Source: Bradyrhizobium sp. CCGB01
GTDB lineage: Bacteria > Pseudomonadota > Alphaproteobacteria > Rhizobiales > Xanthobacteraceae
DNA: 64,000 nucleotides
Assembly: GCF_024199795.1 (NCBI RefSeq)
Contig: NZ_JANADK010000001.1
Span: 6,758,001-6,822,000, forward strand
Direction: 5' to 3'
The notes beneath the pieces were generated by a model. The model saw nothing but the letters and a program-made list of their open reading frames with translations. It was not told the origin of the DNA and made no database searches. Every line of letters begins with the position of its first letter. Position 1 is the stretch's first letter. A program made the translations under genes and the position numbers. Positions 6,811 to 22,719 of the stretch are shown here, one piece after another.

Positions 6811-6897
6811 GAGCGTCCTCCCGCTGGTTGCGACGAAAGCTATGCTATGCGTATTGTCCTGAAAAGCACTCCCTTCGAGGAAACGGCTCACAAGGTG

Positions 6898-7878
6898 ATG
6901 AGAGTTTTGGGACGAACATTGGCGCTCGCGATGGCGCTGGCGATGACGCTGGCCACAAGCGGCCGCGCCGCCGACAATATTCGCCTTGCGGTGCAGAAGA
7001 CCGGAACATTCTCCTGGGAACTGGCCACGATCCGCAGCGCCGGTCTCGACAAGGAGGCCGACCTCTCGCTCGAGGTGACCGAGCTCGCCAGCCCCGAAGC
7101 CGGCAAGATCGCGCTCCGTGCCGGCAGTGCCGACATCATGCTGTCGGACTGGCTGTGGGTGTCGCGCGAGCGTGCGCTCGGCGCCAAGCTCACCTTCTAC
7201 CCCTATTCCAGCGCGCTCGGCGCGGTGATGGTGCCGGCCGCCTCGCCGATCAAGACCCTCGCCGATCTCAAGGGGCGAAAGCTAGCCGTCGGCGGCGGTC
7301 CCATCGACAAGAGCTGGCTGATGCTTCAGGCGCGGATGAAGCAGGACGGCATTGACCTGAAGTCGGACGCGACCATCGTCTATGGCGCCCCGCCCTTGAT
7401 CGCCGCCAAGGCGCTCGACGGCGAGATGGACGCGAGCCTGAACTTCTGGAATTTCTGCGCGCAGCTCGAGGCCAAGGGCTTTCGCCGCCTCGCCGGCATC
7501 GAGGACATTTTACCGAAGTTGGGAGCCAAGGGCGCGGTGTCCGCGGTCGGTTATGTCTTCGACGAGAGCTGGGCCGCCAGCCACCGCGATACGGTAGCGC
7601 GCTTCATTGCGATGACCCGCAAGGCCAAGCAGCTGCTGGTCACCTCGGACGCGGCCTGGGACAAGATCGCGCCACTCACCGGCGCGAGCGATCCGGCCAT
7701 GCTCAAGACCTACCGCGACCGCTATCGCGACGGCATTCCGCGCCGGAGCATCGCGGACGAGGAGGCTGATGCGCGCGTGCTCTATCGCGTGCTCGCCGGG
7801 ATCGGCGGACGCGACCTGGTCGGGCCGGCGGCCGAGCTCGATCCCGGCACTTTCTATCATGCGGTCCCCGGAGACTGA
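6898..7878 (+). CDS. ABC transporter substrate-binding protein, NitT/TauT type, quinoprotein cluster
   Basis: This 326-residue periplasmic binding protein has a signal peptide (RTLALAMALAMTLATSGRAAD). Typical features are GADI-type text in RAGSADIMLSDWLWVSRER, the hinge region VGGGPIDKSWLMLQ and a helical C-terminus. It begins a three-gene ABC operon with permease and ATPase starts overlapping. The frame extends 17 codons further upstream, but the signal peptide argues for 6898. Such transporters are known in PQQ alcohol dehydrogenase clusters; the ligand is not established. Confidence 0.83.
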   Translation: MRVLGRTLALAMALAMTLATSGRAADNIRLAVQKTGTFSWELATIRSAGLDKEADLSLEVTELASPEAGKIALRAGSADIMLSDWLWVSRERALGAKLTFYPYSSALGAVMVPAASPIKTLADLKGRKLAVGGGPIDKSWLMLQARMKQDGIDLKSDATIVYGAPPLIAAKALDGEMDASLNFWNFCAQLEAKGFRRLAGIEDILPKLGAKGAVSAVGYVFDESWAASHRDTVARFIAMTRKAKQLLVTSDAAWDKIAPLTGASDPAMLKTYRDRYRDGIPRRSIADEEADARVLYRVLAGIGGRDLVGPAAELDPGTFYHAVPGD

Positions 7879-8617
7879 GGTGCTGCGTCTTCTGTCGTTT
7901 GCCCTGTTTCTCGCGATCTGGTGGACCGCCGCGCTGTTCGTCGGCGGCGCAAAGCTGCCCTCCCCGCCGGCCGTGCTCAACGTCATCATCGCCGAGGCAT
8001 CGAGCGGCGCGCTGTTCCTGCATCTCGGCGCCACGCTCGCCCGCGTCGCGCTTGCCTTCGTGCTGGCGATGTCGCTCGGCAGCGCCATCGGTTACCTGAT
8101 GGGACGGGTGAAGCTCGCCGACCGGCTTTGCGATCCCTGGCTGATCCTGCTCCTGAACCTGCCGGCACTGGTCGTGATCGTGCTGGCCTATATCTGGGCG
8201 GGGCTGACCGAGGCAGCCGCAATTGCCGCGATCGCCATCAACAAGCTGCCAACCGCCATCGTCACCTTGCGCGAGGGCACGCGCGCGCTCGACCGTTCGC
8301 TCGACGAGATGGCAACCGTGTTCGCAATGCCGCGCTGGCGCGCGTTCCGCCATGTCGTGCTGCCGCAGCTTGCACCCTATATCGCGGCATCTGCCCGCTC
8401 CGGATTGTCGCTGGTGTGGAAGATTGTGCTGGTCGCCGAACTGCTGGGACGGCCGAACGGCGTCGGCTTCGAGATCGGGGTCGCCTTCCAGCTGTTCGAC
8501 ACGCCGCGGCTGCTCGCCTATTCCCTGACATTCGCCGCCGTCGTGCTCGTCATCGAAACCTTGCTGGTGCAGCCGTTCGAAGCCCGCGCAACACGGTGGC
8601 GGCCCCGTGCGGCTTGA
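7859..8617 (+). CDS. ABC transporter permease, NitT/TauT type
   Basis: This is a 252-residue inner-membrane subunit with about six membrane helices and the conserved cytoplasmic EAA-like loop (LDEMATVFAMPRWRAFRHVVLPQLAPYI). The start could be ATG 7859, overlapping the upstream gene by 20 bp, or GTG 7880 just after its stop. It pairs with the ATPase that overlaps its 3' end. Confidence 0.85.
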   Translation: MRSPETEVLRLLSFALFLAIWWTAALFVGGAKLPSPPAVLNVIIAEASSGALFLHLGATLARVALAFVLAMSLGSAIGYLMGRVKLADRLCDPWLILLLNLPALVVIVLAYIWAGLTEAAAIAAIAINKLPTAIVTLREGTRALDRSLDEMATVFAMPRWRAFRHVVLPQLAPYIAASARSGLSLVWKIVLVAELLGRPNGVGFEIGVAFQLFDTPRLLAYSLTFAAVVLVIETLLVQPFEARATRWRPRAA

Positions 8618-9347
8618 GGTCGAGATATCGGGCAAGACGTTCCGGAGCGTCGCGGGCGAAACCCACGAGGTGCTGGCGCCGGTCAAATTCTCACTTCAGT
8701 CCGGCGAGGTCGGCGTGCTCATCGGCCCCTCCGGCTGCGGCAAGAGCACGATGCTGCGCATCATCCTCGGGCTCGACCGCGATTTTCGCGGGACCGTGGC
8801 ACGGCCACCGGAAGTGCGGATCGGGATGGTGTTCCAGGAGCCGCGGCTGTTGCCGTGGCGCTCGGTCGAACAGAATGTGCGGCTTGCGGCTCCTGATATC
8901 TCCGCGGCAAAACTGTCGGAGCTGTTCAGGATCCTGGAGCTCGACGCACATCGCAGCCACTTTCCGGGCGAATTGTCGCTGGGCCTGGCCCGGCGCGTTG
9001 CACTTGCCCGCGCCTTCGCGGTCGAGCCCGATCTGCTCGTGCTCGACGAGCCCCTCGCCTCGCTCGACGACGCGCTCGCCGGCCGCTTGCGCGACGAGAT
9101 CGCGACGCTGGTGGCGAGCCGTCCGGTGATGACGTTGCTCGTCACCCACAGCCTGGATGATGCGATCCGTCTCGGCGACCGCCTGTTCTTCCTGTCGCCG
9201 CGGCCGGCGCGCATCCTGGCCGAGGTACCCATCGGCATCCCGCGCGAGGCACGCGACGACGCCGCGATCGCCGCGATCAAGGCCGGACTTGCGCAGCGAG
9301 CCCAGGGTGAACAGGGCGGCGAACGCTCCGGGCGGGATGTCTCATAG
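8607..9347 (+). CDS. ABC transporter ATP-binding protein, NitT/TauT type
   Basis: This 246-residue ATPase has Walker A GPSGCGKST, Q-loop VFQEPRLLPWRSVEQN, Walker B LLVLDEPLASLD and switch histidine VTHSLDDAIRLGD. The signature is degenerate: LSLGLARRVALARAF replaces the usual LSGGxxQR, losing one glycine and the glutamine. The start is GTG, inside the end of the permease gene. It energises the importer of 6898-8617. Confidence 0.85.
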   Translation: MRLEVEISGKTFRSVAGETHEVLAPVKFSLQSGEVGVLIGPSGCGKSTMLRIILGLDRDFRGTVARPPEVRIGMVFQEPRLLPWRSVEQNVRLAAPDISAAKLSELFRILELDAHRSHFPGELSLGLARRVALARAFAVEPDLLVLDEPLASLDDALAGRLRDEIATLVASRPVMTLLVTHSLDDAIRLGDRLFFLSPRPARILAEVPIGIPREARDDAAIAAIKAGLAQRAQGEQGGERSGRDVS

Positions 9348-9395: not shown

Positions 9396-10190
9396 ATGAG
9401 ACGAACCGTTGCTCTGACGACGCTTGGCTTCGCGTTCGTCGCGACCATGGCGAGCGCTCAGGACATGATGCGTGACGTCGACCTCACCTCACCCGCCATG
9501 GTCTCCGCTGAAATGAGCCGGCAGGAAGTCGAGGCCGTGCTGGCCAAAACGGGCGCCGGCGTGCCCGCCGACTTCACCGGCACGCGCTTGTCGGGACTCG
9601 ATCTCTCGGGGCTCGACCTTTCCGGGGTGGTGCTTCGCACGGCACGTCTCAACAAGACCAAACTCGGCGGCGCCCGCCTTGATCGAGCGATCCTCGATCA
9701 GGCGTGGCTGCTCGACGCGGATCTCACGGGGGCAAGCCTGAAGGGCGCCAACCTGTTCGCTGCGCAGATGGCGCGCGCTCGCCTCGACGGCGCTGATCTC
9801 ACCGGAGCGCGCATCGCGGCCGATCTCAGCGGCGCGAGCCTGGTCGGCGCCTCGATCGCCGACGCGCATCTCGGCGCCGACATGCGCAACCAGTCGATGG
9901 GGTTGATGCGCGCCGTGCTGCGATCGGCCAATCTCGAACGGTTGAACGCGCGCAACGCCGACCTGTCGCGCGTCGATCTCGAGTTTGCCTCCCTCAGGGG
10001 AGCCGACCTGACCGGGGCGTCGCTCCGGAACGCCCAGCTCGGCGGCGCCGACCTGACCGGGGCAACCGTCATCGACACCGATTTCGAGGGCGCCGACCTC
10101 ACCTCCGCCAAGCTGATTGCACCGATCGGCCTTGACCGCGCCAAGAATTTCGACAAGGCAAAGAACCGCGAGCGCCTGATCAGGCAATAA
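9396..10190 (+). CDS. Exported pentapeptide-repeat protein
   Basis: This 264-residue protein has a signal peptide (cleavage near ASAQ). From about residue 60 on it consists of A(D/N)LxG-type pentapeptides (LSGLDLSGLDLSGVVLRTA, ADLTGASLKGANLFAAQMA, ADLTGASLRNAQLGGADL), which form a right-handed quadrilateral beta-helix. A periplasmic location is implied. It follows the ABC ATPase by 48 bp in the same direction and may be cotranscribed. Function is unknown; scaffold or protein-interaction roles are usual for the fold. Confidence 0.8.
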   Translation: MRRTVALTTLGFAFVATMASAQDMMRDVDLTSPAMVSAEMSRQEVEAVLAKTGAGVPADFTGTRLSGLDLSGLDLSGVVLRTARLNKTKLGGARLDRAILDQAWLLDADLTGASLKGANLFAAQMARARLDGADLTGARIAADLSGASLVGASIADAHLGADMRNQSMGLMRAVLRSANLERLNARNADLSRVDLEFASLRGADLTGASLRNAQLGGADLTGATVIDTDFEGADLTSAKLIAPIGLDRAKNFDKAKNRERLIRQ

Positions 10191-10216
10191 CGGCGTCGCC
10201 TTGGGAGGACGATTTG

Positions 10217-10564
10217 ATGCGTTGGACTCTGGTGTTGATCGCGGTGCTGGCGTTTGCCGGCGAAGCCGCCGCGCAAGGCAAAGGCAAGGGCATCCGGCTC
10301 TGGAATTTGACGACGGAGACCATCTCCGGCTTCCAGCTCTCGCCGGCCGGCAAGACCGACTGGGGACCGAACCAGTGCCTGAACGACAAGGACAAGGAGG
10401 TCGATCACGACGAGCGGCTGCGCATCACCGGCGTCGAGCCCGGCCGCTACGACGCCAAGGTCAGCTATCCCAACGCGCGGCAGTGCGTCGTCCGCGACAT
10501 CGAGATCAGGGCCGATGCGGTGTTCTCGATCGCCGACAAGGATCTGAAAGACTGTACCAAGTAG
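10217..10564 (+). CDS. Small exported hypothetical protein
   Basis: This 115-residue protein has a signal peptide (cleavage near AAAQG). The mature part reads like a small beta-sandwich (IRLWNLTTETISGFQLSPAG...YDAKVSYPNAR) with three cysteines: Cys58 (NQCL), the one in QCVVRD and the one in KDCTK at the end. The start ATG 10217 is preceded by GGAGGA. Proteins of this style are common in Rhizobiales as unannotated periplasmic proteins. It follows the pentapeptide gene closely. Confidence 0.7.
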   Translation: MRWTLVLIAVLAFAGEAAAQGKGKGIRLWNLTTETISGFQLSPAGKTDWGPNQCLNDKDKEVDHDERLRITGVEPGRYDAKVSYPNARQCVVRDIEIRADAVFSIADKDLKDCTK

Positions 10565-10574
10565 CGCGGGCGCT

Positions 10575-10784
10575 TCACGCCTTGTCGTTCGGGTGCGGAT
10601 ATTCGCAGCGCCACCGCACCGCCTGCCACTTCGGATGGTCGCCGACCCATTGCGCGATATAGGGTGGCGCGGCCATCGCGCATTGCCGCGGCGACCCCGC
10701 ATAGTTGAACACCAGATGCTGCTCCTCGCAGGTCGCAGGCGAGAGCACCGCACACACAGTCACCACCAGGTCAATCGGATTCAT
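10575..10784 (-). CDS. Small cysteine-containing conserved protein
   Basis: This 69-residue protein starts at 10784, with GAGAGGAT upstream. It has four cysteines (11, 19, 35, 60) and the pattern VVTVCAVLSPATCEEQHL...QCAMAAPPYIAQW...VRWRCEYP, which I recall from a widespread uncharacterised family of short rhizobial proteins. It converges with the preceding gene, with a 10-bp gap. Confidence 0.65.
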   Translation of the reverse strand: MNPIDLVVTVCAVLSPATCEEQHLVFNYAGSPRQCAMAAPPYIAQWVGDHPKWQAVRWRCEYPHPNDKA

Positions 10785-10898
10785 GCCGGGATCCTCTCGC
10801 AAGGGCGATAGAGATTAGCACGAAAGGTTACGCTTCGCGGAGCGGGAAGTTTCAATTTGGTGGGAGATAATGGGAGGAACCGTGGGCCACACACTGAC

Positions 10899-10923
10899 TG
10901 CCTTCTCCTCGTGGGGGAGAAGA
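10899..10923. repeat. Fragment of the CTCTCCCC intergenic repeat
   Basis: CTTCTCCTCGTGGGGGAGAAG is a single hairpin matching one arm of the elements at 6272 and 28,159. It sits just past the 3' end of the outer-membrane protein gene and could serve as its terminator. Confidence 0.5.
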
Positions 10924-10952
10924 TGCACCTCCGTCGCGGTAACACACCCGGT

Positions 10953-11822
10953 CTAGAAGTTAACCCCGAACACCAATCGCGCCTGGTGCCGCTCGAAATT
11001 GACGAGGTCGAGATTGGCGCTCGATCCGGCCGGACGTCCCCAGGCCTGCATGCTCCAGCTTAACGTGAGCCGCGACTTCTCCGAGAGCTGGAAATACGCG
11101 GTCGGACCGATGAACAAGGCCTGGCCTGAAAACTCGCCGAGACCGATGCCGTCATATTGCCGGAAGTATCGCATCTCCCCGCCGAGCAGAAAATTGGGGC
11201 GCACGCGCACCATGCCGGCGAAGGCCGCGCCGACGGTCGAGCTCTTTTCCGACACGCCCGCGACCTCGAAGCGAGCCCATTCCGGCTGGTAGATCAGATT
11301 GAGCGCCGCGATGGCGTAGTTCGGGATCAGCTCGCGATCGAAGGCGAGCGTGAAGTCGGTGCCGTACATCCGCCCTTTCGCGCCGCTGGTCTCGTCGATG
11401 CGGTCGCCATGGAGCTCGGCGGCGACAGTCAGGCCAAATGGCGCGCGCTCGCGGTCGAGCAGGCGATAGCGCAGGTCGAGCGATGCGCCCTGAAAATTGA
11501 ACTGGCGGCGATCGTCGATGTCGGGGACGCCGGTGATGTCGTGCAGCGTGGCGGTGCCGCCGACCTCGATGCGGAAGTTCGGCAACGGCACCACCTCGAT
11601 CTCGACCTCCTGCGCCAAGGCGCGATAGGTCCCGCCGCCCTTGCCGAAACGCCCCGTGGTCTGGCTTTGAAATTCGCGCTCGCCGGGATTGCCGACATCG
11701 GTGCCGATCATGAAGCCGAAGATATGCTCGGTATCAAAGCCCTCTTCGGCGCTGGCGCACGCCGGTGCAAGCGCGATGCTGCAGGCGGCTATGGTCCAGA
11801 ATGTATGGGCTCTCGCGCGCAT
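10953..11822 (-). CDS. Outer-membrane beta-barrel-like protein
   Basis: This 289-residue protein has a signal peptide ending near ACASAEE. The mature chain alternates polar and hydrophobic residues in strands and ends in the aromatic RLVFGVNF, typical of outer-membrane barrels. It lies 60 bp downstream of pqqA on the same strand and is probably cotranscribed with it. The frame opens 12 codons earlier (11858), but 11822 gives the better signal peptide. It could be a channel for alcohols or a metal complex; that is only a guess from context. Confidence 0.7.
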   Translation of the reverse strand: MRARAHTFWTIAACSIALAPACASAEEGFDTEHIFGFMIGTDVGNPGEREFQSQTTGRFGKGGGTYRALAQEVEIEVVPLPNFRIEVGGTATLHDITGVPDIDDRRQFNFQGASLDLRYRLLDRERAPFGLTVAAELHGDRIDETSGAKGRMYGTDFTLAFDRELIPNYAIAALNLIYQPEWARFEVAGVSEKSSTVGAAFAGMVRVRPNFLLGGEMRYFRQYDGIGLGEFSGQALFIGPTAYFQLSEKSRLTLSWSMQAWGRPAGSSANLDLVNFERHQARLVFGVNF

Positions 11823-11882
11823 CCCTGACACTACCACGGCTTCGACGGCGTTTGCCATCGAAGCCGCGGCAGGTCGTCAGTC

Positions 11883-11963
11883 TTACTTGCGCGAAGCGCA
11901 GGCGTACATGTTGATTTCCATGCCGACCGGCACTTCCACGATCTTCGGAGCTTTCCAAGCCAT
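11883..11963 (-). CDS. pqqA: Coenzyme PQQ precursor peptide PqqA (orphan copy)
   Basis: This 26-residue reading frame encodes MAWKAPKIVEVPVGMEIN followed by MYACASRK. Glu16 and Tyr20 are spaced E-x-x-x-Y as required for PQQ synthesis, where PqqE joins their side chains before the backbone is excised. GGGAGA lies about 8 bp upstream of the ATG. The gene is too short for ordinary ORF calling. None of pqqB, C, D or E is in the window, so this is a detached copy placed between a lanmodulin gene and an outer-membrane protein gene, close to two PQQ dehydrogenase operons. The sequence match to the family is unmistakable. Confidence 0.95.
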   Translation of the reverse strand: MAWKAPKIVEVPVGMEINMYACASRK

Positions 11964-12134
11964 TCGGGGTCTCCCAAGGGATTGAGCGCGACATCGCGCG
12001 GGGCAAAACCTAGGGCTGCGTCAGGCACAGCGCAAGCGGGGAATCGAACCGCCGACACAGCGAACTGTCGCATCGCGCTCACGAATTTCTCTCTCGGGCA
12101 AACCGTCTTCGCTCCCAGTCAAGCGCAGCTGATT

Positions 12135-12527
12135 TCACCGCAACAATCGCAGCAGCGCGCGGCCGGCGCGCGAGTTCAGCTCCTTCGCATCCAGCGTTCC
12201 ATCCTTGTCGGGATTCGCCGCGTTGAAGCGCTGCTCCACCACCGCGAGATATTCGTCGAGCGTGAGAGTCCCGTCGCGATCAGGATCGGCGGCCGCGAGT
12301 TCTTTCGCCGTTAACCGTCCGCGCAATTCGCGGGCGTCGAGCGTGCCGTCGCGATCGGGATCGAGCCTGGCGAACAACGCGCTGGCAGCCTTCTTCACTT
12401 CGGCGAGATCGAGCGTGCCGTCATTGTCGGTATCGAACATCTTTACGGCGTTGCCGGAGGCCGCACATGCCGGGCCGGACAGCAGTGCAAGCGTGAGTGC
12501 AAGCGCAACAGAGCGACGCGATATCAT
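12135..12527 (-). CDS. lanM: Lanmodulin-type lanthanide-binding EF-hand protein
   Basis: This 130-residue periplasmic protein has a signal peptide (residues 1-22). Four 12-residue EF-hand loops lie at 32-43 (DTDNDGTLDLAE), 56-67 (DPDRDGTLDARE), 81-92 (DPDRDGTLTLDE) and 105-116 (NPDKDGTLDAKE). Proline at loop position 2 in loops 2-4, the 24/25/24 spacing and Asn at position 1 of loop 4 match lanmodulin of Methylorubrum extorquens, which binds lanthanides very tightly. Loop 1 has Thr instead of Pro, and loop 3 has Thr at position 9 where Asp is usual. The start is supported by GGGAGG. It is divergent from the lanthanide-type PQQ dehydrogenase gene. Confidence 0.9.
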   Translation of the reverse strand: MISRRSVALALTLALLSGPACAASGNAVKMFDTDNDGTLDLAEVKKAASALFARLDPDRDGTLDARELRGRLTAKELAAADPDRDGTLTLDEYLAVVEQRFNAANPDKDGTLDAKELNSRAGRALLRLLR

Positions 12528-12868
12528 GAAAACCTCCCTGACCAAGGGCTCCGATTCGAGCCGGTTCGAAACGACATAAGTCCACAAGCGAGCCGCGGTT
12601 CAAGTCCGGACTTGCATCTTGCGCGCCGCACAACTCGCGGAACCCGACGGCCCGAGCGCGGCAGCCCGTGCCGGCGCTGCTTCATGCCGCGGAATTTTTT
12701 CAGCGCCTGCGCACAAGTGAGAGCCGCCCGTAAGGTCTCCGTCAGGTAACCGGCATCGGGCGCCCAGCATATCGGCGTCGCAATTACGACTTTCGTATTG
12801 ACGAGTTTTGCGTTCGGGCGGAGTGTTGCTGTCGCAGCGTCAAAAGGCGCGCATATTGGGAGGAACGG
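12528..12868. promoter_or_regulatory. Divergent promoter region between lanM and the ExaF-like gene
   Basis: These 341 bp hold no convincing gene. They must carry the promoters of lanM (leftward) and the dehydrogenase operon (rightward), whose ribosome site GGGAGGA is at 12858-12864. A-T-rich blocks occur near 12692 and 12781-12810 (CAATTACGACTTTCGTATTG), but I cannot place -35/-10 boxes with confidence. Confidence 0.5.
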
Positions 12869-14533
12869 ATGAAACGCTTTGCGATGGCCGCGAGCCTCGT
12901 CATGCTTGCATCGACTTGTGCGAGCGCACAAACCACCGAGCAACTGGTCAAGGGCGCGACCGATACATCGAACGTTCTCAATTACGGGATGGGCTACAAT
13001 CTCCAGCGCTTCTCGACGCTGAACCAGATCAACAAGGACACCGTCAAGAATCTCGTCCCGGTCTGGAACTACAGCTTCAACGATGATCGCAGCGAGGAAT
13101 CGCAACCCCTGGTATACAATGGCGTCATCTATGTGACCTCCCACAACGCCACGATGGCGGTCGATGCCAAGACGGGCAAGCAGATCTGGAAATCCAAGGT
13201 CGAGTATCCTGCCGAGACGCCGCGCATCGTCTGCTGCGGCATCATCAACCGCGGCGCCGCGCTCTATGACGGCAAAGTCTTCCGCACCACGCTCGACGCC
13301 AACGTGATCGCGCTCGATGCCAAGGACGGCAAGGAGCTGTGGCGGCAGAAGGCCGCCGACATCAAGGAAGGCTATTCGATGACGGTGGCGCCGCTGGTCG
13401 CCGACGGTGTCGTGATCACCGGCATCTCGGGCGCCGAGTTCGGCACCCGCGGCTTCATCGACGGCTGGGATCCGGCAACGGGCAAGCATCTGTGGCGCAC
13501 CCATTCGATCCCCTCGCCGGACGAGCCCGGCGGCGACACCTGGAAGGGCGACACCTGGAAGCTCGGCGGCGGCTCGACCTGGATCACGGGCTCGTACGAT
13601 CCCGAGCTGAACACGGTCTATTGGGGCATCGGCAATCCCGGCCCGTTCAATTCGGCGGTGCGCCCCGGCGACAACCTCTACACCTGCTCCGTGCTGGCGA
13701 TGGATCCCAAGACCGGCAAGATCAAGTGGCACTACCAGTTCTCGCCGAACAACCCGTTCGACTATGACGCCGTGGCCGAGATGGTCCTCGCCGACATGAA
13801 CGTCGAGGGCAAGCCGACCAAGGTGCTGATGGATGCCAACCGCAACGGCTTCTTCTACGTGCTCGACCGCACCAACGGAAAGCTGCTCGCGGCCAATCCC
13901 TACGTGAAGGTGAACTGGGCAACCGGCGTCGACATGAAGACGGGCAAGCCGATCGAGACCGACGTTTCCAAGGATGCGCGCGAGGGCAAGAAGGTGATCG
14001 TCTATCCGTCGATCCTCGGCGGCAAGAACTGGGAGCCGATGTCGTTCAATCCGCAGACCGGATTGGCCTACGCCAACACGCTCGCCTTCGGCGGCAAGTA
14101 CAAGTCGGAGCCCGTCACCTTCAAGCAGGGCGAATGGTATCTCGGCATGGACCTGACCGATCCTTGGGAGTTCGGGGACGGCGCGCGCGGCCATCTGAAG
14201 GCGATCGATCCCATGACCGGCAAGGCCAAGTGGGAGGCACCGGCCGACATTCCGCGCTTCTCCGGCGTGCTGTCGACCGCGGGCGGCGTCGTGTTCACGG
14301 GCGCGCTGACCGGCGAGTTCGAGGCCTTCGATGCCGACACCGGCAAGAAGCTCTGGCAGTTCCAGACCGGCTCCGGCATCGAGGGACAACCGGTGACCTG
14401 GCAGCAGGATGGCGTGCAATACGTTGCCGTCACCTCCGGCTATGGCGGCGTCTACTCGCTGTTCTCCGGCGACGAGCGGCTTGCCAAGGTGCCGCCCGGC
14501 GGCTCGCTGTGGGTTTTTGCGGTCAAGCAGTAA
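12869..14533 (+). CDS. PQQ-dependent alcohol dehydrogenase, lanthanide type (ExaF/PedH-like)
   Basis: This 554-residue periplasmic quinoprotein has a signal peptide ending near CASAQ. It is an eight-bladed propeller with tryptophan-docking repeats such as AVDAKTGKQIWKSK and ALDAKDGKELWRQK. Features are the adjacent cysteine pair in RIVCCGIINRG, which forms the ring over PQQ, and the catalytic Asp298 followed by Asp300 in PFDYDAVAE; the second Asp is the hallmark of lanthanide enzymes. The YGMGYNLQRFSTLNQIN start and single-subunit layout resemble ExaF/PedH. It oxidises a primary alcohol, exact substrate unknown, and passes electrons to the cytochrome encoded next. Confidence 0.88.
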   Translation: MKRFAMAASLVMLASTCASAQTTEQLVKGATDTSNVLNYGMGYNLQRFSTLNQINKDTVKNLVPVWNYSFNDDRSEESQPLVYNGVIYVTSHNATMAVDAKTGKQIWKSKVEYPAETPRIVCCGIINRGAALYDGKVFRTTLDANVIALDAKDGKELWRQKAADIKEGYSMTVAPLVADGVVITGISGAEFGTRGFIDGWDPATGKHLWRTHSIPSPDEPGGDTWKGDTWKLGGGSTWITGSYDPELNTVYWGIGNPGPFNSAVRPGDNLYTCSVLAMDPKTGKIKWHYQFSPNNPFDYDAVAEMVLADMNVEGKPTKVLMDANRNGFFYVLDRTNGKLLAANPYVKVNWATGVDMKTGKPIETDVSKDAREGKKVIVYPSILGGKNWEPMSFNPQTGLAYANTLAFGGKYKSEPVTFKQGEWYLGMDLTDPWEFGDGARGHLKAIDPMTGKAKWEAPADIPRFSGVLSTAGGVVFTGALTGEFEAFDADTGKKLWQFQTGSGIEGQPVTWQQDGVQYVAVTSGYGGVYSLFSGDERLAKVPPGGSLWVFAVKQ

Positions 14534-14543
14534 CCCCGGCGCG

Positions 14544-14900
14544 ATGCGGAAAGACGTATCTCACAAGACGGTGGCGACGATCGCCACCGTCGCGGTGCTG
14601 ACGGTCGCGCTTGCGGCGACCGTTCGTGCCGCGGACGACGCAACCGGCAATCCCCTTCAGGCGCAGATCGACCATGGTAAGTCGACCTATGCCTCGAAAT
14701 GCTCGCACTGCCACGGCCCCAATCTGATGAACTCCGGCACCATCACGCCGGACCTGCGCGCCTTCCCCGACGACAAGATGCGCTTCGTCACCACCGTGAA
14801 GAACGGCAAGAACAACAAGATGCCGCCCTGGGCCGACATTCTCAACGACGACCAGATCGCGGATCTCTGGGCCTTCGTCTCCAGCCGGAGAAAGCCATGA
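14544..14900 (+). CDS. Periplasmic c-type cytochrome partner of the ExaF-like dehydrogenase
   Basis: This 118-residue protein has a signal peptide (cleavage near VRAADD). Haem attachment is CSHCH (Cys53, Cys56, His57), and Met93 in NNKMPPW is the probable sixth ligand. It has a class I cytochrome c fold with the terminal helix DDQIADLWAFV. It lies 10 bp downstream of the dehydrogenase and overlaps the next gene by 4 bp. By position it is the electron acceptor of the dehydrogenase. Confidence 0.88.
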   Translation: MRKDVSHKTVATIATVAVLTVALAATVRAADDATGNPLQAQIDHGKSTYASKCSHCHGPNLMNSGTITPDLRAFPDDKMRFVTTVKNGKNNKMPPWADILNDDQIADLWAFVSSRRKP

Positions 14901-15823
14901 GGAGCTGGCTCGCTGCGTGGAGTGTTGCCGCGATCCTCGCGGCGGCGACGGTCGCCCGCGCGGCCGACGATCCGCTCAAAGTATGTCTCGACGAGGACCG
15001 ACCGCCGCTCTCGGTGCATCTGCGGGGCAAGCCGGATTCCGGCTTCGACGTGCTGCTGGCACAGGCGATCGCGGAGCGGATGGGAAGGCCGCTGAAAATC
15101 CAGTGGTTCGAGAGCAAGCTGGACGAGGATTCCAGTCCGCAGCTCGAGGCCAACGCCCTGCTCTCCGACGGGCGCTGCTCGCTGGTCGGCGGCTATGCGC
15201 TGACGACGGATTCTCTCGTCAAGCCTGGCATGAAGACGGCACGCTTGCCGGCTTTCTCCGGGGCCACGCGTGACGACCGGCGCCGCCGCGTCGCCGTCGG
15301 CGTGCTCGCGCCGAGCCAGCCCTATGTTTACTCGCCGATGACAGTCGTGCTCGGGCCGAAGGCGCGGGGTCGCAAGATCGGCGACATCGGCGACCTCGCC
15401 GGCCTTCGCCTCGCGATCGAGAGCGGCTCGCTGGGCGATGCCATCCTGATGACCTTCGACAAGGGCCGCCTGATCGACGGCATCACCCATCTCGTTCCCG
15501 GCCGCGACGATCTCCTCGGCGCGCTCCAGCGCGGCGACTATGACGCGACGCTGATCGACCTCGGCCGCTTCGACGCCCACCGCGCCGCACATCCCGATAC
15601 GGCAATTACCGCGTCCGGCTATTACTATCCGATCGGCGCCAATCGCGGCTATGTCGGGCTTGCCAGCGATCCCGCGCTGATCGATGCCGTCAACTCCGCG
15701 CTGACCGGCCTTGCTGCCGAAGGCAAGATCGCCGAATTCGGCAAGCAGGCCGGCCTCACCTATTTGCCGCCGCGCGAGCCTGCGATCTTGGGCGATGTCT
15801 GGATGAAGATCATTCAGCGGTGA
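14897..15823 (+). CDS. XoxJ/MxaJ-like periplasmic binding protein
   Basis: This 308-residue solute-binding family 3 type protein has a signal peptide (cleavage near ARAADD). Lobe 1 opens with LKVCLDEDRPPLSV and contains GFDVLLAQAIAERMG; lobe 2 has IGDIGDLAGLRLAIESGSLG. In methanol dehydrogenase operons the J protein follows the dehydrogenase and cytochrome and is thought to assist enzyme activation. Here it completes a dehydrogenase-cytochrome-J set with the ExaF-like enzyme, whereas the true xoxF operon lacks it. Confidence 0.82.
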   Translation: MRSWLAAWSVAAILAAATVARAADDPLKVCLDEDRPPLSVHLRGKPDSGFDVLLAQAIAERMGRPLKIQWFESKLDEDSSPQLEANALLSDGRCSLVGGYALTTDSLVKPGMKTARLPAFSGATRDDRRRRVAVGVLAPSQPYVYSPMTVVLGPKARGRKIGDIGDLAGLRLAIESGSLGDAILMTFDKGRLIDGITHLVPGRDDLLGALQRGDYDATLIDLGRFDAHRAAHPDTAITASGYYYPIGANRGYVGLASDPALIDAVNSALTGLAAEGKIAEFGKQAGLTYLPPREPAILGDVWMKIIQR

Positions 15824-15830
15824 CGCCTGT

Positions 15831-15940
15831 CATTTGCGGGGCGCCCGCAGGGCGAGCCCGGGATCCATTTCTCCGCAGCACATGCGGCCCGATGGATTCC
15901 GGGCCTGCGTGCTGCGCGCGCATCCCGGAATGACGGAGGG
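15831..15940. repeat. Dispersed intergenic palindromic repeat (GGATTCCGGG type)
   Basis: CCCGGGATCCAT at about 15857-15868 is mirrored by ATGGATTCCGGG at about 15892-15903, and the outer ends GTCATTTGCGGGG and CCCGGAATGAC are partial inverted copies. This resembles a repeat common between genes in Bradyrhizobium. It follows the XoxJ-like gene and precedes the FUSC gene, and an upstream extension of the FUSC frame through it is not real coding. Confidence 0.65.
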
Positions 15941-16034
15941 TGCGGTTGGCAACGGAGCGCGTCACCATCGATTCGCCTGGCGGCACCGCGAACCGTATGA
16001 TGCCCCGCATTTCATTTCGACCATTCGGTGCGCC

Positions 16035-17042
16035 GTGAATTCCCCGACCGCATCCGCCGCAGGCCTGCGCGATCTTCTCTCCCGCGAGATCAAGACGGGC
16101 GAACTGCTGCGGGCGCTGATCGTCGTCGGCCCGATGGTCGTCGCCTATTTCATCTCGCGCGAGACGGCGCTGTTGAATCTCGGGTTGGTCGCAGTCTCAT
16201 TGCTCATTCCAGCCCTCAGGCTGCACCTGCCGCCAAAAGTCGTCGCGTGGCATTACCTCGTCATCATCGTTACCTTCGCTACGCTGTTCCTCGCGAGCCC
16301 GATCAAGCCGGCCTTCGTGGCGCTGACGGCGCTCGCCGGCTTCCTTGCTGTGGCCGGGACGCGCTATGGCGAGCATTTCCGCACGCTTGGCAATTGGGTG
16401 TTCATCCCCGCCGTCTACCTCGCCTGCGAGGTGCGGGAGGGCGTGAGCGCCTCGGAAGCCGTCCGTCACGCCGGCGTGATCATCGCCTCCTCCCCGATCG
16501 CGCTGGCGCTCGTCTGCGCTATCCAATTTTACGACCAGCGGCGAAGTGACAATGCGGCGACTTCGTTCGGACCGCCCGCGGCCGAGTGGTTTCTGCCCGC
16601 GGTAGCAACCGCCATGGCGGTCTTTGCGGCAGCGGCGCTGGTCGAGATCCTCGACCTTGCGCAGGGGCAATGGGTGATGTGGTCGGCCGCGAGCGTCGTG
16701 GTCGGCGATCTCTCCGCGTCCACCGGCAAGTTGAGACAGCGGGCGATCGGCGCCTTCGTCGGCGTGCCGCTCGGCTTCCTCGCGGGCCTTACCCTGCCGC
16801 AAAGCCGCGTCGGCTATGCCATCGCGGTGCTGGCGGCTACCCTCACCCTGATCTCGTTCTCACGCTATGTCGTCGGCTTCGGCCTGCGCTGCTTCTTCAT
16901 CGCGCTGGCTGCGTCCTTTGCCGGCGGCGCAAGCGGCATCGCGGAGGAGCGCATCGTCAACGTGCTGATCGGCGGTACTTTTGGCCTCATCGCCGTCGCC
17001 CTGACCGAGATCGTCTGGCTTCGGGTCATGCGCAAGCCGTGA
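16035..17042 (+). CDS. FUSC-family inner-membrane protein
   Basis: This 335-residue membrane protein has about nine to ten hydrophobic helices in two halves, with a charged loop near QFYDQRRSDNAATS. The second half has WVMWSAASVVVGDLSASTGKLRQRAIGAFVGVPLGF, the typical FUSC pattern (fusaric acid resistance and aromatic acid export proteins). The start is probably the GTG at 16035, because codons upstream lie in a repeat. It is a single gene with no periplasmic adaptor subunit nearby. Substrate unknown. Confidence 0.72.
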   Translation: MNSPTASAAGLRDLLSREIKTGELLRALIVVGPMVVAYFISRETALLNLGLVAVSLLIPALRLHLPPKVVAWHYLVIIVTFATLFLASPIKPAFVALTALAGFLAVAGTRYGEHFRTLGNWVFIPAVYLACEVREGVSASEAVRHAGVIIASSPIALALVCAIQFYDQRRSDNAATSFGPPAAEWFLPAVATAMAVFAAAALVEILDLAQGQWVMWSAASVVVGDLSASTGKLRQRAIGAFVGVPLGFLAGLTLPQSRVGYAIAVLAATLTLISFSRYVVGFGLRCFFIALAASFAGGASGIAEERIVNVLIGGTFGLIAVALTEIVWLRVMRKP

Positions 17043-17162
17043 TCGTCCGGGTAACGGAAAATGAAGGCCGCGCCGCCTGATCAATGCGCCAATCTGTCTC
17101 GCCTCCCGACCATGGCAGCGCCAGCCCGATGCAGTAGGTTCGGCCAAAATCAGGAGGGAATC

Positions 17163-18152
17163 ATGTCCGCCAAATTCGATCGCCGCCACTTCATCGCCGC
17201 CGGTACCACTGCACTCGCGATGCCCTTCGTCGCGCGCGGCGCCTCGGCGCAAAGCACCTGGCCCTCGCGGCAAATCCGCATGATCTGCAGCTATCCCGCC
17301 GGCGGACAGACCGACCTGCTCGCGCGCGCCTATGGCGAATTCATCTCCAAGCAGGTCGGCAAGACCGTCGTCGTCGAGAACAAGCCCGGTGCCTCCGGCG
17401 CGATCGGCACCGCGGAAGTGGCCCGCGCGGAGCCCGACGGCCACACCATCCTGTGCTCGATCTCGACCACCTACATCATGAACCGGGTGGTCATGAAGAA
17501 TCCCGGCTACGACATGGACAAGGATCTGACGCTCGTGAGCGTCATTCCGGGCGCCGGCCTTCTGCTGGTCGCGAACCCCAAGACCGGCGTCAAGACGCTG
17601 GAGGATTTCGTCGCCTTCGCGCGCAAGAGCGGCAAGGTCAACTTCGGCACCTACAGCGCGGGCTCGGCCCCGCACATGACGATCAACGAGCTCAACAAGC
17701 AGTATGGCCTTTCCATCGAGCCGGTTCACTACCGCGGCGAAGCACCGATGTGGACGGGGATGCTGGAAGGCACGCTCGATGCCGCGATGGGCAGCTACAC
17801 GGCGGCGCAATCGGTCCTGCAAAGCGACCGGGGCACGGACTTCGCCGTGCATTCGAAGAAGGTGGACGCGATCCCGGCCATCAAGACGCTCCCCGAGCAG
17901 GGCGCGACGTCAAAATTCTTCACCGTGAGCGGCTTCTCCGGCTGGGCGGTGCCGAAGGCGACGCCGCAGCCGGTCGTCGACCGGCTGGCCGAGCTATGCG
18001 TTGCCGCCAACAGCGATCCGAAGGTGAAGGAGGTGCTCGCGACCTTCGTGCTCGAGCCGGCGATCGGCTTCAAGGAGACCAACGCACTGTATCAGCGCGA
18101 GCTCCCGATCTGGATCGAGAGCGCAAAGTCGCTCGGTCTCGAGCCGGCCTGA
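17163..18152 (+). CDS. Bug-family (TctC-like) tripartite tricarboxylate transporter binding protein
   Basis: This 329-residue periplasmic binding protein has an export signal with a twin-arginine-like start (DRRHFIAAGTTALAM). The Bug hallmarks are present: the YPAGGQTDLLAR loop, VVVENKPGASGAIGTAEVARAEPDGHT and NFGTYSAGSAPHM. AGGAGGGA precedes the ATG. No TctA or TctB membrane genes are adjacent, as is common for the many orphan Bug proteins. The ligand, usually a carboxylate, cannot be told. Confidence 0.85.
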   Translation: MSAKFDRRHFIAAGTTALAMPFVARGASAQSTWPSRQIRMICSYPAGGQTDLLARAYGEFISKQVGKTVVVENKPGASGAIGTAEVARAEPDGHTILCSISTTYIMNRVVMKNPGYDMDKDLTLVSVIPGAGLLLVANPKTGVKTLEDFVAFARKSGKVNFGTYSAGSAPHMTINELNKQYGLSIEPVHYRGEAPMWTGMLEGTLDAAMGSYTAAQSVLQSDRGTDFAVHSKKVDAIPAIKTLPEQGATSKFFTVSGFSGWAVPKATPQPVVDRLAELCVAANSDPKVKEVLATFVLEPAIGFKETNALYQRELPIWIESAKSLGLEPA

Positions 18153-18288
18153 ACGTGACGCGGCACACGGGCTGTCCCATCGCAGCCCGGCGTCCTACCA
18201 AAGCCTAGTGTCGGAAACGCATTTTCCGGCTATGATTGTGCGCCGCTTCCGGAAGCCCTCTCCGGGGCGAACGAGAAGGGCCGCTCGC

Positions 18289-18714
18289 ATGACACCGGAT
18301 GGCGTCGCCGTAGCCGTCATGATCATCCTGCTCTTTCCGATGGGCTATTTCACGTTGGCCTCGCCGGCCTTCCTGCTGGTGAAGCTCGATATTCAGCCCG
18401 TCGCCCAGCTATTGCGCGGGATGTTCAACGCCCATTTTCTGGTGATGCGCATTGCCGGCGTGATCGGGACGCTGGCTTTCCTCCTCGACGGCCGCCTGGT
18501 CGCCGCAACGGGCGTCGGCCTGCTCACAGCCCTGGCCATCTGGGGACGCCGCTGGTTCATGCAACGGATGGACGACCAGCTCAGCGCGAGAGACGCCGGC
18601 GATGCTGAAGCCCCGCGTCGACTGCGGTGGCTGCATTGGAGCGGAATGCTGGGCAACGCGGTGCTGCTCGTCGCTCTCGTGACCAGCATTCCCTACGTCG
18701 CCATATCGGCCTGA
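18289..18714 (+). CDS. Small inner-membrane protein of unknown function
   Basis: This roughly 141-residue protein has four likely membrane segments (VAVAVMIILLFPMGYFTLA, VMRIAGVIGTLAFLL, LVAATGVGLLTALAIW and LLVALVTSIPYVAI) and a basic cytoplasmic loop RRWFMQRMDDQLSARDAGD. An upstream GTG at 18208 would add 27 basic residues; the ATG at 18289 has AAGGG before it and gives a normal membrane N-terminus. No family was recognised. Confidence 0.55.
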   Translation: MTPDGVAVAVMIILLFPMGYFTLASPAFLLVKLDIQPVAQLLRGMFNAHFLVMRIAGVIGTLAFLLDGRLVAATGVGLLTALAIWGRRWFMQRMDDQLSARDAGDAEAPRRLRWLHWSGMLGNAVLLVALVTSIPYVAISA

Positions 18715-18762
18715 GAGGTATCGCCGCGCGGCGGCCTGCGTCGGCTGCGGCGCGGCGTTCGC

Positions 18763-19863
18763 CTAATGCTCGCCCGAGGCCGTAGTGCCCTGCTGGGCCT
18801 TGTGGATCGAGGACGGCACCACGCCAAAATATTTCCGGAACACGCGGCTGAAATGCGATGAGCTGGAGAAGCCCCAGGAGAAGGCGACGTCGGTGATGGT
18901 CTTGCCGCCGTGCGCCTCGAGCTCCTGGCGGCAGTTCTGCAAGCGCGCCTGCCAGATGTAATCGCTCACCGTGGTGCCGCGCTCGGAGAACAGCATGTGC
19001 AGATAGCGCTTGGAGCAGCCTAGCTCGGCGGAGATCTGGTCGATGCACAGATCCGGATCGCGCAGGTGCTCGCGGATGAAGAATTGCGCGCGCACATACA
19101 TCGCCTCGGGCCCCACGCGATCGAACATCGTGTCCGCTTCGCGCAACGGCAGCAGCAGGAGGTCGATCAGCGAATCGGCAACACCGACCGCGCTGTTCGC
19201 CGACAGCTTGGCCGCCTCGTCGAAGGTGGCATGGACGAAATCGTGGGCGATCCTCCCCGTCCCGGTCTTTGCCGACAATTTGCAGGCCGGCATCCGCTGC
19301 GACGGGAATCCGCGGTCGCGCAGCAAAGCCTTCGGCACGATCACCACGTCGTGGCGGGTGAAGGCGGGGCTGATGATCGAATGCGGACAGGAGACGTCAT
19401 AGGCGATGATGTCGCCCGGGTTCAGCTCGATGTGGCGGCCTTCCTGCTCGAAATAGGACACGCCGTAGGTCTGGAAGTGAATCTTGATGTACGGGTGTTC
19501 ATTGGCCTTGGCGCGCGCCAGCGTGTGCGCGATGCGATGCTGGCTGACCTCGATCTGGCAGAGCTTCAGGCGCGAGACGCTGGTGTAGTCGATGCGGCCT
19601 TCGAGCGAGGATGCCTCGAGCGGATCGACGTCGAAATGCCCGCACAGGCTCGTCAGCCCGTCGATCCAGCTCTGGATCTGACGCTTCGGCGTCAGTCCGG
19701 TCGTCGAGAGCGTGTGAATTGTGTCGGACATTAATCCAGCCACTGTGGTTGCATCCGGAGATTCGACGCGAATCGCGACCAGCGCTGCCGGAGCCCTCAG
19801 CCATGATTGCGTGACGTTTACCTCGAAATTGAGCGGTCTTTGCAACGAGCGCGATCGTTCCAT
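18763..19863 (-). CDS. AraC-family transcriptional regulator divergent from xoxF
   Basis: This protein of up to 366 residues has an N-terminal ligand-sensing domain of the AraC-binding-like type (IKIHFQTYGVSYFEQEGRHIELNPGDIIAYD) and a C-terminal double helix-turn-helix (DLCIDQISAELGCSKRYLHMLF and TITDVAFSWGFSSSSHFSRVFRKYFGVVPS). AAGGGTGG lies before the ATG at 19863; a later ATG at 19731 is possible. It faces xoxF across a 384-bp region, so control of the xoxF-xoxG-flhA-gfa unit is likely by position. The inducer is unknown. Confidence 0.83.
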   Translation of the reverse strand: MERSRSLQRPLNFEVNVTQSWLRAPAALVAIRVESPDATTVAGLMSDTIHTLSTTGLTPKRQIQSWIDGLTSLCGHFDVDPLEASSLEGRIDYTSVSRLKLCQIEVSQHRIAHTLARAKANEHPYIKIHFQTYGVSYFEQEGRHIELNPGDIIAYDVSCPHSIISPAFTRHDVVIVPKALLRDRGFPSQRMPACKLSAKTGTGRIAHDFVHATFDEAAKLSANSAVGVADSLIDLLLLPLREADTMFDRVGPEAMYVRAQFFIREHLRDPDLCIDQISAELGCSKRYLHMLFSERGTTVSDYIWQARLQNCRQELEAHGGKTITDVAFSWGFSSSSHFSRVFRKYFGVVPSSIHKAQQGTTASGEH

Positions 19864-20247
19864 TGCCACCCTTGACAGTTAATCCTCCGCCTTAGTTGCA
19901 GCGCCGTCAAGGGGAACCTGAGCCTCGAAGCCGGTCGCGAAGCCCCGCGGAAGCCGCTGAATTCGCTACTGCAAAATCAAAATCTTCGCATCCGTGCGCT
20001 GTCGAGCAAAGCGGCTTCTCTCTTGGGCAAGTTTCCCGATGACGAAGTCGTTAGGGATTGCGACAGGAACAAGAAGAACGGGCCGCTCCTGCACGTGGAC
20101 CCGTAGCTCTCATCCGGAGGAGGAAACAGCACAGCATCGTTTCTGGTCCCAATCGTGACCGCCCTGCACGAGCAGACGCCGGACGAGAAGCCCGGTGATT
20201 TAGCAATGCTTCGGAAACAATAAAACGAGACCAACGGAGGAATGACT
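19864..20247. promoter_or_regulatory. Divergent control region between the AraC gene and xoxF
   Basis: These 384 bp hold no supported gene. A TTGACA hexamer is at 19872-19877 but has no good -10 box 17 bp on. GGAGGAGGAAAC at about 20116 resembles a ribosome site without a start codon after it. The xoxF ribosome site GGAGG is at 20236-20240. No clear AraC-type direct repeat could be read by eye. Confidence 0.45.
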
Positions 20248-22056
20248 ATGCGCAAGGTGCTAATGGCGACCTATCTTGGCTCCGCGGCGATGCTCGCCGT
20301 CGGCAGCGCGTCAGCCAATGACGAGCTGATCAAGATGTCGCAGAACCCCAAAGACTGGGTGATGCCGGCGGGCGACTACGCCAATACCCGCTATTCCAAG
20401 CTGAATCAGATCAACGCACAAAACGTAGGCAAGCTCCAGGTCGCCTGGACCTTCTCCACCGGCGTGCTGCGCGGCCACGAAGGCGGCCCGCTGATCATCG
20501 GCAACATGATGTACGTCCACACGCCGTTCCCGAACAAGGTCTACGCTATTGACCTTTCAAACGAGAACAAGATCGTCTGGAAGTACGAGCCGAAGCAGGA
20601 TCCGAACGTCATCCCGGTGATGTGCTGCGATACGGTTAACCGCGGCCTGTCCTACGGCGACGGCAAGATCATCCTGCATCAGGCCGACACCAACCTCGTC
20701 GCGCTCGACGCCAAGACCGGCAAGGTCGAGTGGTCGTCGACGAACGGCAACCCTGCCAAGGGCGAGACCGGTACGTCGGCCGCGCTGGTCGTCAAGGACA
20801 AGGTCCTGGTCGGCATCTCCGGCGGCGAGTTCGGCGTGCAGTGTCACGTCACCGCTTACGACCTCAAGAGCGGCAAGCAGGTCTGGCGCGCCTTCTCGGA
20901 AGGTCCGGATGACCAGATCAAGGTCGATCCGGCCAAGACGACGTCGCTCGGCAAGCCGGTCGGAGCCGACTCCTCGCTGAAGACCTGGCAAGGCGATCAG
21001 TGGAAGATCGGCGGCGGCTGCACCTGGGGCTGGATGTCCTACGATCCCGCTCTGAACCTCGTGTATTACGGGTCGGGCAACCCCTCGACCTGGAATCCGA
21101 AGCAGCGTCCGGGCGACAACAAGTGGTCGATGACCATTTTCGCGCGCGACGCGGACACCGGCATGGCCAAGTGGGTCTATCAGATGACGCCCCACGACGA
21201 GTGGGACTATGACGGCGTCAACGAGATGATCCTCTCGGATCAGCAGATCAACGGCCAGCCGCGCAAGTTGCTGACCCATTTCGACCGTAACGGCCTCGCC
21301 TACACGATGGACCGTGAGAACGGCGAACTGCTGGTCGCCGAAAAGTACGATCCGAAGGTGAACTGGACCTCCGGCGTCGACATGGACAAGAACTCGGCGA
21401 CCTATGGCCGTCCGAAGGTGCTCGACGCAGCGTCGACCGACAAGGCCGGCGAAGACCACAACGTGAAGGGCATCTGCCCGGCCGCGCTCGGTACCAAGGA
21501 CGAGCAGCCGGCAGCCTACTCGCCGGACACGCAGCTGTTCTACGTTCCGACCAACCACGTCTGCATGGACTACGAGCCGTTCAAGGTGAGCTACACCGCG
21601 GGCCAGCCCTATGTGGGTGCGACGCTCTCGATGTATCCGCCGCAGGGTGAAACCCACATGGGTAACTTCATCGCCTGGGACGGCAAGACCGGCAAGATCG
21701 TCTGGTCGAACAAGGAGCAGTTCTCGGTCTGGTCGGGTGCGCTCGCAACCGCCGGCGGCGTGGTGTTCTACGGCACGCTCGAAGGCTACCTGAAGGCGGT
21801 CGATGCCAAGTCCGGCAAGGAGCTCTACAAGTTCAAGACTCCCTCCGGCATCATCGGCAACGTCACGACCTATGAGAACGGCGGCAAGCAGTATGTCGCA
21901 GTGCTCTCCGGCGTGGGCGGCTGGGCCGGCATCGGTCTGGCAGCAGGTCTGACCGATCCGACCGCCGGTCTCGGCGCAGTCGGTGGCTACGCGGCTCTCA
22001 GCAACTACACGGCACTCGGCGGTACGCTGACCGTGTTCTCGCTGCCGGCGAACTAG
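20248..22056 (+). CDS. xoxF: Lanthanide-dependent methanol dehydrogenase XoxF
   Basis: This 602-residue periplasmic quinoprotein oxidises methanol to formaldehyde, or further, with PQQ and a lanthanide ion. A signal peptide ends near SASAND. Landmarks are the [21 protein letters not shown] start, the cysteine pair in [10 protein letters not shown], and catalytic Asp320 with Asp322 in [11 protein letters not shown]; the second Asp separates XoxF from calcium-type MxaF, which has Ala there. Length and motifs match XoxF. Of two close ATGs, 20248 is chosen because GGAGG lies 7 bp upstream; 20242 directly abuts it. It leads an operon with xoxG and formaldehyde-oxidation genes. Confidence 0.95.
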
Positions 22057-22074
22057 CCTCACCTTCGTGTCGCT

Positions 22075-22103: not shown

Positions 22104-22137
22104 CTCGTCTCCACCGAACGCCTTCGAGGATATTCTC

Positions 22138-22659: not shown

Positions 22660-22719
22660 ACGTTACGAGGGCTGCCGGTACTACCTCTTGGCGTCCTGCG
22701 AGAATTTGAGGAGTTTACG

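Follow-up and report, generated by a model that had tools for sequence, protein, structure and literature searches.

A gene in the 64,000-nucleotide stretch of the Bradyrhizobium sp. CCGB01 genome analysed here (the window) encodes a protein which, by model score, predicted fold, and tree, looks like a genuine lanmodulin (LanM). It carries threonine at position 2 of its first EF loop and at position 9 of its third, and both residues are common to the Bradyrhizobium lineage, the latter being nearly fixed. The gene lies divergent to one for a PQQ alcohol dehydrogenase, and this pairing is frequent in the genus. The features of the locus are listed in Table 1.

Table 1 Features of the lanM locus (positions within the window)
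Feature	Position	Strand	Basis or remark
301-aa gene downstream of lanM, same strand	10953..11858	-	DUF6662, 18.5 bits (cut-off 27, not reached)
lanM, 130-aa lanmodulin, stop codon included	12135..12527	-	NF053806 equivalog, Foldseek
EF loop 4, NPDKDGTLDAKE	12180..12215	-	Asn1, also present in Mex-LanM
EF loop 3, DPDRDGTLTLDE	12252..12287	-	Thr at position 9
EF loop 2, DPDRDGTLDARE	12327..12362	-	
EF loop 1, DTDNDGTLDLAE	12399..12434	-	Thr at position 2
Signal peptide, likely	12459..12527	-	residues ~1-23; by eye: Arg-Arg start, hydrophobic stretch, Ala-x-Ala-type end
Divergent intergenic region between lanM and PedH-like gene, 341 bp	12528..12868		
GGAGGT, ribosome-binding-like site of lanM	12532..12537	-	each base in 58-61 of 62 regions
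Conserved block GACTTTCGTATTGACG	12788..12803	+	the PedH-like gene starts 65 bp downstream
PedH/ExaF-like PQQ alcohol dehydrogenase, 554 aa	12869..14533	+	TIGR03075, 712 bits
c-type cytochrome	14544..14900	+	PF13442, E 4e-14; PedF c550 model, 42.5 bits (cut-off 122, not reached)
Periplasmic binding protein, weakly XoxJ/MoxJ-like	14897..15823	+	SBP_bac_3, 32.9 bits, cut-off 26.4
XoxF lanthanide methanol dehydrogenase	20242..22056	+	PDB 6oc5 (XoxF), 1067 bits; DYD motif

The lanM gene extends from an ATG at 12527 to a stop codon at 12135-12137 and is the only LanM match in the genome, a single contig of 9.3 Mb; further copies in the same genome were absent at E 0.001. The protein reaches 182.6 bits (E 3e-54) with the NCBIfam LanM equivalog NF053806, whose cut-off is 135. 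Its top sequence match in the PDB is LanM of Methylorubrum extorquens AM1 (Mex-LanM, 6mi5; E 2.9e-33), with which it is identical at 61 of 100 aligned residues. The leading four PDB chains (6mi5, 8fns, 9pi2, and 8dq2) are all lanmodulins and are followed by HeliScrew4 (9zem, E 9.9e-10), presumably a designed protein to judge from its name, and then by centrin (3qrx, E 1.7e-5). Pfam recognizes mainly generic EF-hand domains. The EF loops start at residues 32, 56, 81, and 105, i.e. 24, 25, and 24 residues apart, and are separated by 12, 13, and 12 residues, respectively. Position 2 is occupied by proline in loops 2, 3, and 4 and by threonine in loop 1, loop 3 combines Thr9 with retained Asp1, Asp3, Asp5, and Glu12, and loop 4 opens with Asn-Pro. 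As hallmarks of LanM sequences, four EF loops, 12-13 residues between neighbouring loops, and Pro2 in at least one loop have been named (PMC10232371), and all three are found in the window protein. A start spacing of 24 residues also occurs in several bacterial EF-hand pairs and is not unique to LanM alone.

An AlphaFold2 model of the protein, obtained with an alignment of 20 rows including the query, has a mean pLDDT of 76.7, with values below 50 at residues 4-26, which belong to an N-terminus that appears signal-like by eye. When this model was searched with Foldseek, the first four PDB matches were the lanmodulins 8fns, 8dq2, 8fnr, and 6mi5, with TM scores of 0.86 for 8fns and 0.82 for 8dq2; the first calmodulin scored about 0.27-0.28. 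The predicted fold is that of a lanmodulin rather than that of a calmodulin. In a quick tree (162 rows, 111 columns), the protein was placed inside a set of 67 rows, 65 of them from Bradyrhizobium, with a support of 95, and Mex-LanM was found on a separate branch together with rows of family f42, which we take to be the Methylobacteriaceae. Six of the seven EF-hand outgroup rows lie outside the LanMs (branch support 79) and the seventh, which has a very long branch (7.03), falls among them; as 90 of the 159 inner branches are open, the tree is informative on coarse placement only. The initial annotation, made from the sequence alone, had described a lanmodulin homologue at 12135-12527 on the minus strand with four loops in 24/25/24 spacing, Pro2 in loops 2-4, Asn-Pro in loop 4, a first loop without Pro2, and Thr9 in loop 3. 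Start, stop, length, and all of these residues were recovered, the alignment that it proposed as a check returned known lanmodulins as the best PDB matches, and NF053806 score, fold match, and tree position agree with its family assignment. The grouping with calmodulin-like EF-hand proteins that it had named as contrary evidence was not obtained in this weakly resolved tree.

The best PDB match of the divergently oriented neighbour is PedH (6zcv, 467.5 bits), which is followed by XoxF (6dam) with 371.9 bits; on these scores an assignment of the neighbour as XoxF was rejected. The entry 6zcv, itself titled quinoprotein ethanol dehydrogenase, is taken here to be PedH of Pseudomonas putida. Asp-Tyr-Asp at residues 298-300 of the neighbour, in which the second Asp follows the catalytic one at a distance of two residues, aligns with Asp-Phe-Asp of PedH, and the enzyme is 38% identical to the XoxF protein encoded at 20242-22056. 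To judge from its sequence, it is closest to the PedH/ExaF-like, lanthanide-type alcohol dehydrogenases. A lanthanide-type PQQ dehydrogenase divergent from lanM, as initially proposed, is thus present, with the Asp-x-Asp motif, and its type is PedH/ExaF-like and not XoxF.

The linkage of the two genes was analysed in 156 Bradyrhizobium genomes, with thresholds of E 1e-15 for LanM (partial matches such as those in G351 and G815 being counted) and E 1e-150 for the PedH-like enzyme and XoxF. Matches were obtained in 117 genomes for LanM, in 113 for the PedH-like enzyme, and in 147 for XoxF. LanM and the PedH-like enzyme occur together in 106 genomes and are both missing in 32, an association with a Fisher p of 2.5e-17 before any correction for kinship; strict pairing is contradicted by 11 of the 117 LanM genomes, which have no PedH-like gene, and by 7 of the 113 PedH-like genomes, which have no LanM. 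The pair is divergent at a distance below 1 kb in 95 of the 106 genomes (gap 267-916 bp, median 341 bp) and unlinked in 11, and XoxF was matched at E 1e-150 or better in 116 of the 117 LanM genomes. Neighbourhoods were compared in the best 80 of 162 loci, a selection which for that reason leans towards the query and which comprises 78 loci from Bradyrhizobium, one from a Bradyrhizobiaceae MAG, and one from a Hyphomicrobiales MAG. A PedH-like gene of at least 93% identity lies upstream of and opposite to lanM in 69 of these best 80 of 162 loci; eight extra matches of 37-39% are cross-matches to other dehydrogenases, and six loci without the PedH-like gene (L058, L060, L067, L070, L080, and L082) carry an AraC-type gene and xoxF on that side. 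In 59 loci outside the genus (11 of them <6 kb), PedH-like neighbours with more than 36% identity were not detected; one of these loci (L213) has a XoxF of 51% identity near LanM. Being frequent in the genus and not seen in the 59 outside loci, the lanM/PedH-like pairing appears to be characteristic of Bradyrhizobium, and LanM seems to be tied more widely to lanthanide alcohol oxidation.

The XoxF enzyme, a putative member of clade 5 (XoxF5), is encoded about 7.7 kb from lanM, and the genes for the c-type cytochrome, the XoxJ-like binding protein, an AraC-type regulator, and other proteins are located between the PedH-like gene and xoxF. The open frame of the cytochrome extends back to 14409, but by eye translation more likely starts behind the dehydrogenase gene; the start of the binding protein was likewise picked by eye, and MoxJ-type models match it weakly, far below their cut-offs. 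The 301-aa product of the gene downstream of lanM is possibly an outer-membrane protein by its sequence, and this gene was matched in 65 of the best 80 of 162 loci, some of which are cut short. Further out, a methanol-metabolism cytochrome, a glutathione-dependent formaldehyde dehydrogenase, and a quinoprotein-relay metallohydrolase are encoded. The last of these, a quinoprotein relay system zinc metallohydrolase 2 (4460-5386, plus strand; TIGR04559, 406.6 bits vs 280), is found in 63 of the best 80 of 162 loci, and an ABC importer composed of an NMT1-like binding protein, a permease, and an ATPase (6847-9347, plus strand) has matches in 72 of them. The window also encodes a third PQQ dehydrogenase from the methanol/ethanol family, at 28373-30589 on the minus strand (match over residues 196-704 of a 738-aa frame). 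In Bradyrhizobium diazoefficiens USDA 110, two xoxF homologues lie near gfa, frmA, and frmB genes (PMC12628762), and the window looks similar to this arrangement.

Within the divergent intergenic region, 62 sequences were aligned, i.e. 61 loci from the best 80 of 162 and the window itself. For each base of GACTTTCGTATTGACG, 61 or all 62 of them agree, and the PedH-like gene has a well conserved leader, too. The block is possibly a -35/promoter element or an activator site, as far as the sequence suggests. It occurs as one exact copy in the window, with one further match with two mismatches at 37580 (two matches were reached by 4 of 100 shuffles), and nothing close to it was found upstream of xoxF5. 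Searches for a sigma-70-type promoter by consensus in 11850-12900, for structured RNAs at the Rfam gathering score in 10000-23000, and for tandem repeats in 12000-12900 returned nothing.

Loop residues were first of all compared in the 78 Bradyrhizobium sequences of the best 80 of 162 loci (L075 and L077, not titled Bradyrhizobium, were left out), 67 of which carry Thr and 11 Pro at position 2 of EF1; at position 9 of EF3, 77 have Thr and one has Ser, and 66 combine both threonines. A second genus set, consisting of 48 sequences that pass a loop pattern and including the query's own, may share species with the first; it has Thr (39), Pro (8), or Leu (1) at EF1 position 2 and Thr (45), Ser (2), or Met (1) at EF3 position 9. 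The pattern matched 193 of 226 loci, and the other 33 comprised nine dehydrogenase or other EF-hand genes and 24 LanM loci, which were read by alignment (eight from Bradyrhizobium, six from other genera, and ten from other families). Among the eight from Bradyrhizobium, position 9 of EF3 is Thr in L180, L195, L196, L198, L199, and L200 and Ser in L189, and the sequence of L193 is cut short there. The 35 sequences from other genera of the family have Asp (22), Ser (7), Thr (5), or Glu (1) at this position, with Glu (5) and Ser (1) in the six pattern-failing loci, and the 29 from other families Asp (22), Thr (3), Glu (3), or Asn (1), with Glu (7), Gly (2), and Asp (1) in the ten pattern-failing loci. 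Outside Bradyrhizobium, EF3 Thr9 therefore occurs in 8 of 80 loci; EF1 Thr2 is present there in 12 of 35 sequences from other genera and in 10 of 29 from other families. The two residues, which the initial annotation had regarded as altered, thus represent the usual state of the genus. In the 78-sequence set (best 80 of 162 loci), EF3 Thr9 is encoded by ACG (68), ACC (7), or ACT (2) and the single Ser by TCG; the use of three threonine codons fits selective maintenance, with shared descent accounting for some of the uniformity. The tree (137 of 162 rows) requires a minimum of 12 changes for EF3 position 9 and of 11 for EF1 position 2, which are rough figures since the trait columns were kept in the tree.

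Residue 2 of loop 1 and residue 1 of loop 4 occur as Thr/Asn in 64, Pro/Asp in 8, Thr/Asp in 3, and Pro/Asn in 3 of the 78 sequences (best 80 of 162 loci). The eight Pro2/Asp1 LanMs (L035, L038, L051, L055, L064, L066, L071, and L072 of the best 80 of 162 loci) may form one clade and are natural counterparts of the engineered Mex-LanM variant N108D. A second LanM group in the genus (L195, L196, L198, L199, and L200; one tree clade) is distinguished by Ala8 in EF1 (DPDKDGTADLSE type) and a shortened C-terminus and again has EF3 Thr9. In addition, two degraded LanMs were encountered, namely a second copy in G382 (C12:197588-197953, L193) with two in-frame TGA stops, and one in G351 (C1:5029962-5030204, L180) that covers residues 50-130 only and lies beside a full-length PedH-like match.

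It is very improbable that the window protein is a calmodulin-type, calcium-binding EF-hand protein merely resembling lanmodulin. Several close relatives are labelled 'calcium-binding protein' (among the 120 listed of 4801 homologues found), the Pfam matches are of the generic kind, and Thr at position 9 also occurs in calmodulin-type loops. Residues other than Pro at position 2, Thr included, are usual in such loops, too (PMC12603986). These similarities are outweighed by four tandem loops in 24/25/24 spacing, an NF053806 score far above the cut-off, lanmodulins as the first fold matches, the tree position (with an outgroup branch support of 79 only), and the linkage of the gene to lanthanide-type dehydrogenases; a calcium-type identity was rejected on model score, predicted fold, and tree. 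Scarcely credible, too, is a decaying or dispensable LanM copy in which relaxed constraint has led to functionless loop changes: the degraded genes of G382 and G351 show that such decay occurs in the genus, but the window copy is intact and the sole LanM match in its genome, and the same residues recur genus-wide with synonymous codon changes.

For a true lanmodulin, the initial annotation had considered that the residues in EF1 and EF3 alter lanthanide selectivity or the number of sites, and a clearly different selectivity or a smaller number of tight sites appears rather unlikely. Position 9 does matter: in Mex-LanM its Asp hydrogen-bonds metal-bound solvent, and in LanM of Hansschlegelia quercus (Hans-LanM), which differs in light/heavy selectivity and in which EF3 is the one site touching a metal-sensitive dimer interface, Glu9 is a direct metal ligand (PMC10232371). 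Exchange of Pro2 for Ala in Mex-LanM lowers the selectivity over calcium and leaves lanthanide affinity intact (PMC12603986), and the near-fixation of Thr9 (77 of 78 in the best 80 of 162 loci, 45 of 48, and 6 of 8 pattern-failing loci) also speaks for a changed selectivity. On the other hand, Asp1, Asp3, Asp5, and Glu12 of loop 3 are kept, and a lost EF3 site is therefore not indicated; moreover, LanM of Methylobacterium aquaticum 22A, with Thr2 in EF1 and Lys2 in EF2, still changes its shape with La (PMC9260416). The most likely consequence of Thr9 is a modest one: as it removes the Asp side chain that bonds solvent in Mex-LanM, the affinity or the light/heavy preference of EF3 may shift, with the site itself being kept. 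Mex-LanM, too, has Asn1 in loop 4 and a weak EF4, and the N108D exchange brings its Gd count to 3.8, compared with about 2.2 without it (PMC11561317); by this analogy, the default expectation for the window LanM would be three tight sites and one weak site, EF3 being possibly retuned.

The analysis documents the family of the protein, its predicted fold, the make-up of its loops, its conservation, and the linkage of its gene; beyond this, a role can be proposed. The gene very probably encodes a Bradyrhizobium-type LanM, which would bind light lanthanides in the periplasm and buffer them or hand them over to the PedH-like and XoxF5 enzymes of the locus. Its N-terminus suggests export to the periplasm, where the EF loops would bind light lanthanide ions, the protein would fold upon binding in a disorder-to-order switch, and the metal might be buffered or passed to the divergently encoded PedH-like enzyme and XoxF5. 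In M. extorquens PA1 lacking mxaF, a lanM knockout caused no growth defect on methanol plus La (PMC9260416), so that even in model organisms it is not established that LanM is needed for metal supply. We put forward only tentatively the more specific idea of a LanM class of Bradyrhizobium's own, in which EF3 Thr9 would retune the site, the protein would be paired with the PedH-like enzyme and not with lut genes, and it would act as a buffer or delivery partner with its own light-lanthanide preference.

The occurrence of LanM in Bradyrhizobium has already been published, and another source lists 15 Bradyrhizobium plasmid LanMs (PMC12482762). Our search of PLSDB (E 1e-15) yielded no Bradyrhizobium plasmid LanM and two matches, in Methylobacterium nodulans and Methylorubrum extorquens. 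For growth on methanol, which proceeds via XoxF, B. diazoefficiens USDA 110 and Bradyrhizobium sp. USDA 3456 have been reported to require light lanthanides; the words lanmodulin, LanM, ExaF, and PedH are absent from the main text of that study (PMC12628762). The characterization of the protein as a lanmodulin outside the classical methylotrophs consequently holds in a narrow sense, and does not hold as an oddity, with LanM in 117 of 156 genus genomes, in a published record (PMC12482762), and next to lanthanide-dependent growth on methanol (PMC12628762). In the literature searched, which included few subscription papers and no supplements, no description of the PedH-like pairing or of genus-wide EF3 Thr9 was found. 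With the family already known, the new detail suggested by the sequences is that within a single genus position 9 of EF3 is almost always Thr instead of Asp. Lanmodulins are used for rare-earth separation and loop changes shift their metal preference; a genus with EF3 Thr9 and relatives with Asp, Ser, or Glu provide a natural series on this position. The role of LanM is unsettled even in model methylotrophs, and the conserved pairing with a PedH-like enzyme offers a concrete hypothesis for what it serves in soil and nodule bacteria.

Among the known systems, Mex-LanM (6mi5, 8fns) shares with the window LanM the four loops, starts that are 24, 25, and 24 residues apart, proline at position 2 of loops 2-4, the initial Asn of loop 4, and the predicted fold; the window LanM differs in Thr2 of loop 1 and Thr9 of loop 3, and the two proteins are identical at 61 of 100 aligned residues. 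The gene of Mex-LanM is part of the lut transport cluster (PMC7391723), whereas the window lanM lies beside the PedH-like gene. LanM of M. aquaticum 22A likewise has Thr2 in EF1, but Lys at position 2 of EF2, where the window LanM has Pro (PMC9260416). Hans-LanM (8dq2) and the Ancylobacter LanM 9pi2 resemble the window LanM in spacing and, in the case of 8dq2, in the predicted fold, although the window LanM is more distant from both in sequence; the ligand Glu9 of Hans-LanM (PMC10232371) contrasts with Thr in EF3 of the window LanM. For the divergent neighbour, PedH (6zcv) is the nearest solved relative, and its Asp-x-Asp motif is aligned with that of the neighbour, the PedH-like enzyme comprising 554 aa and the PedH chain 601 residues.
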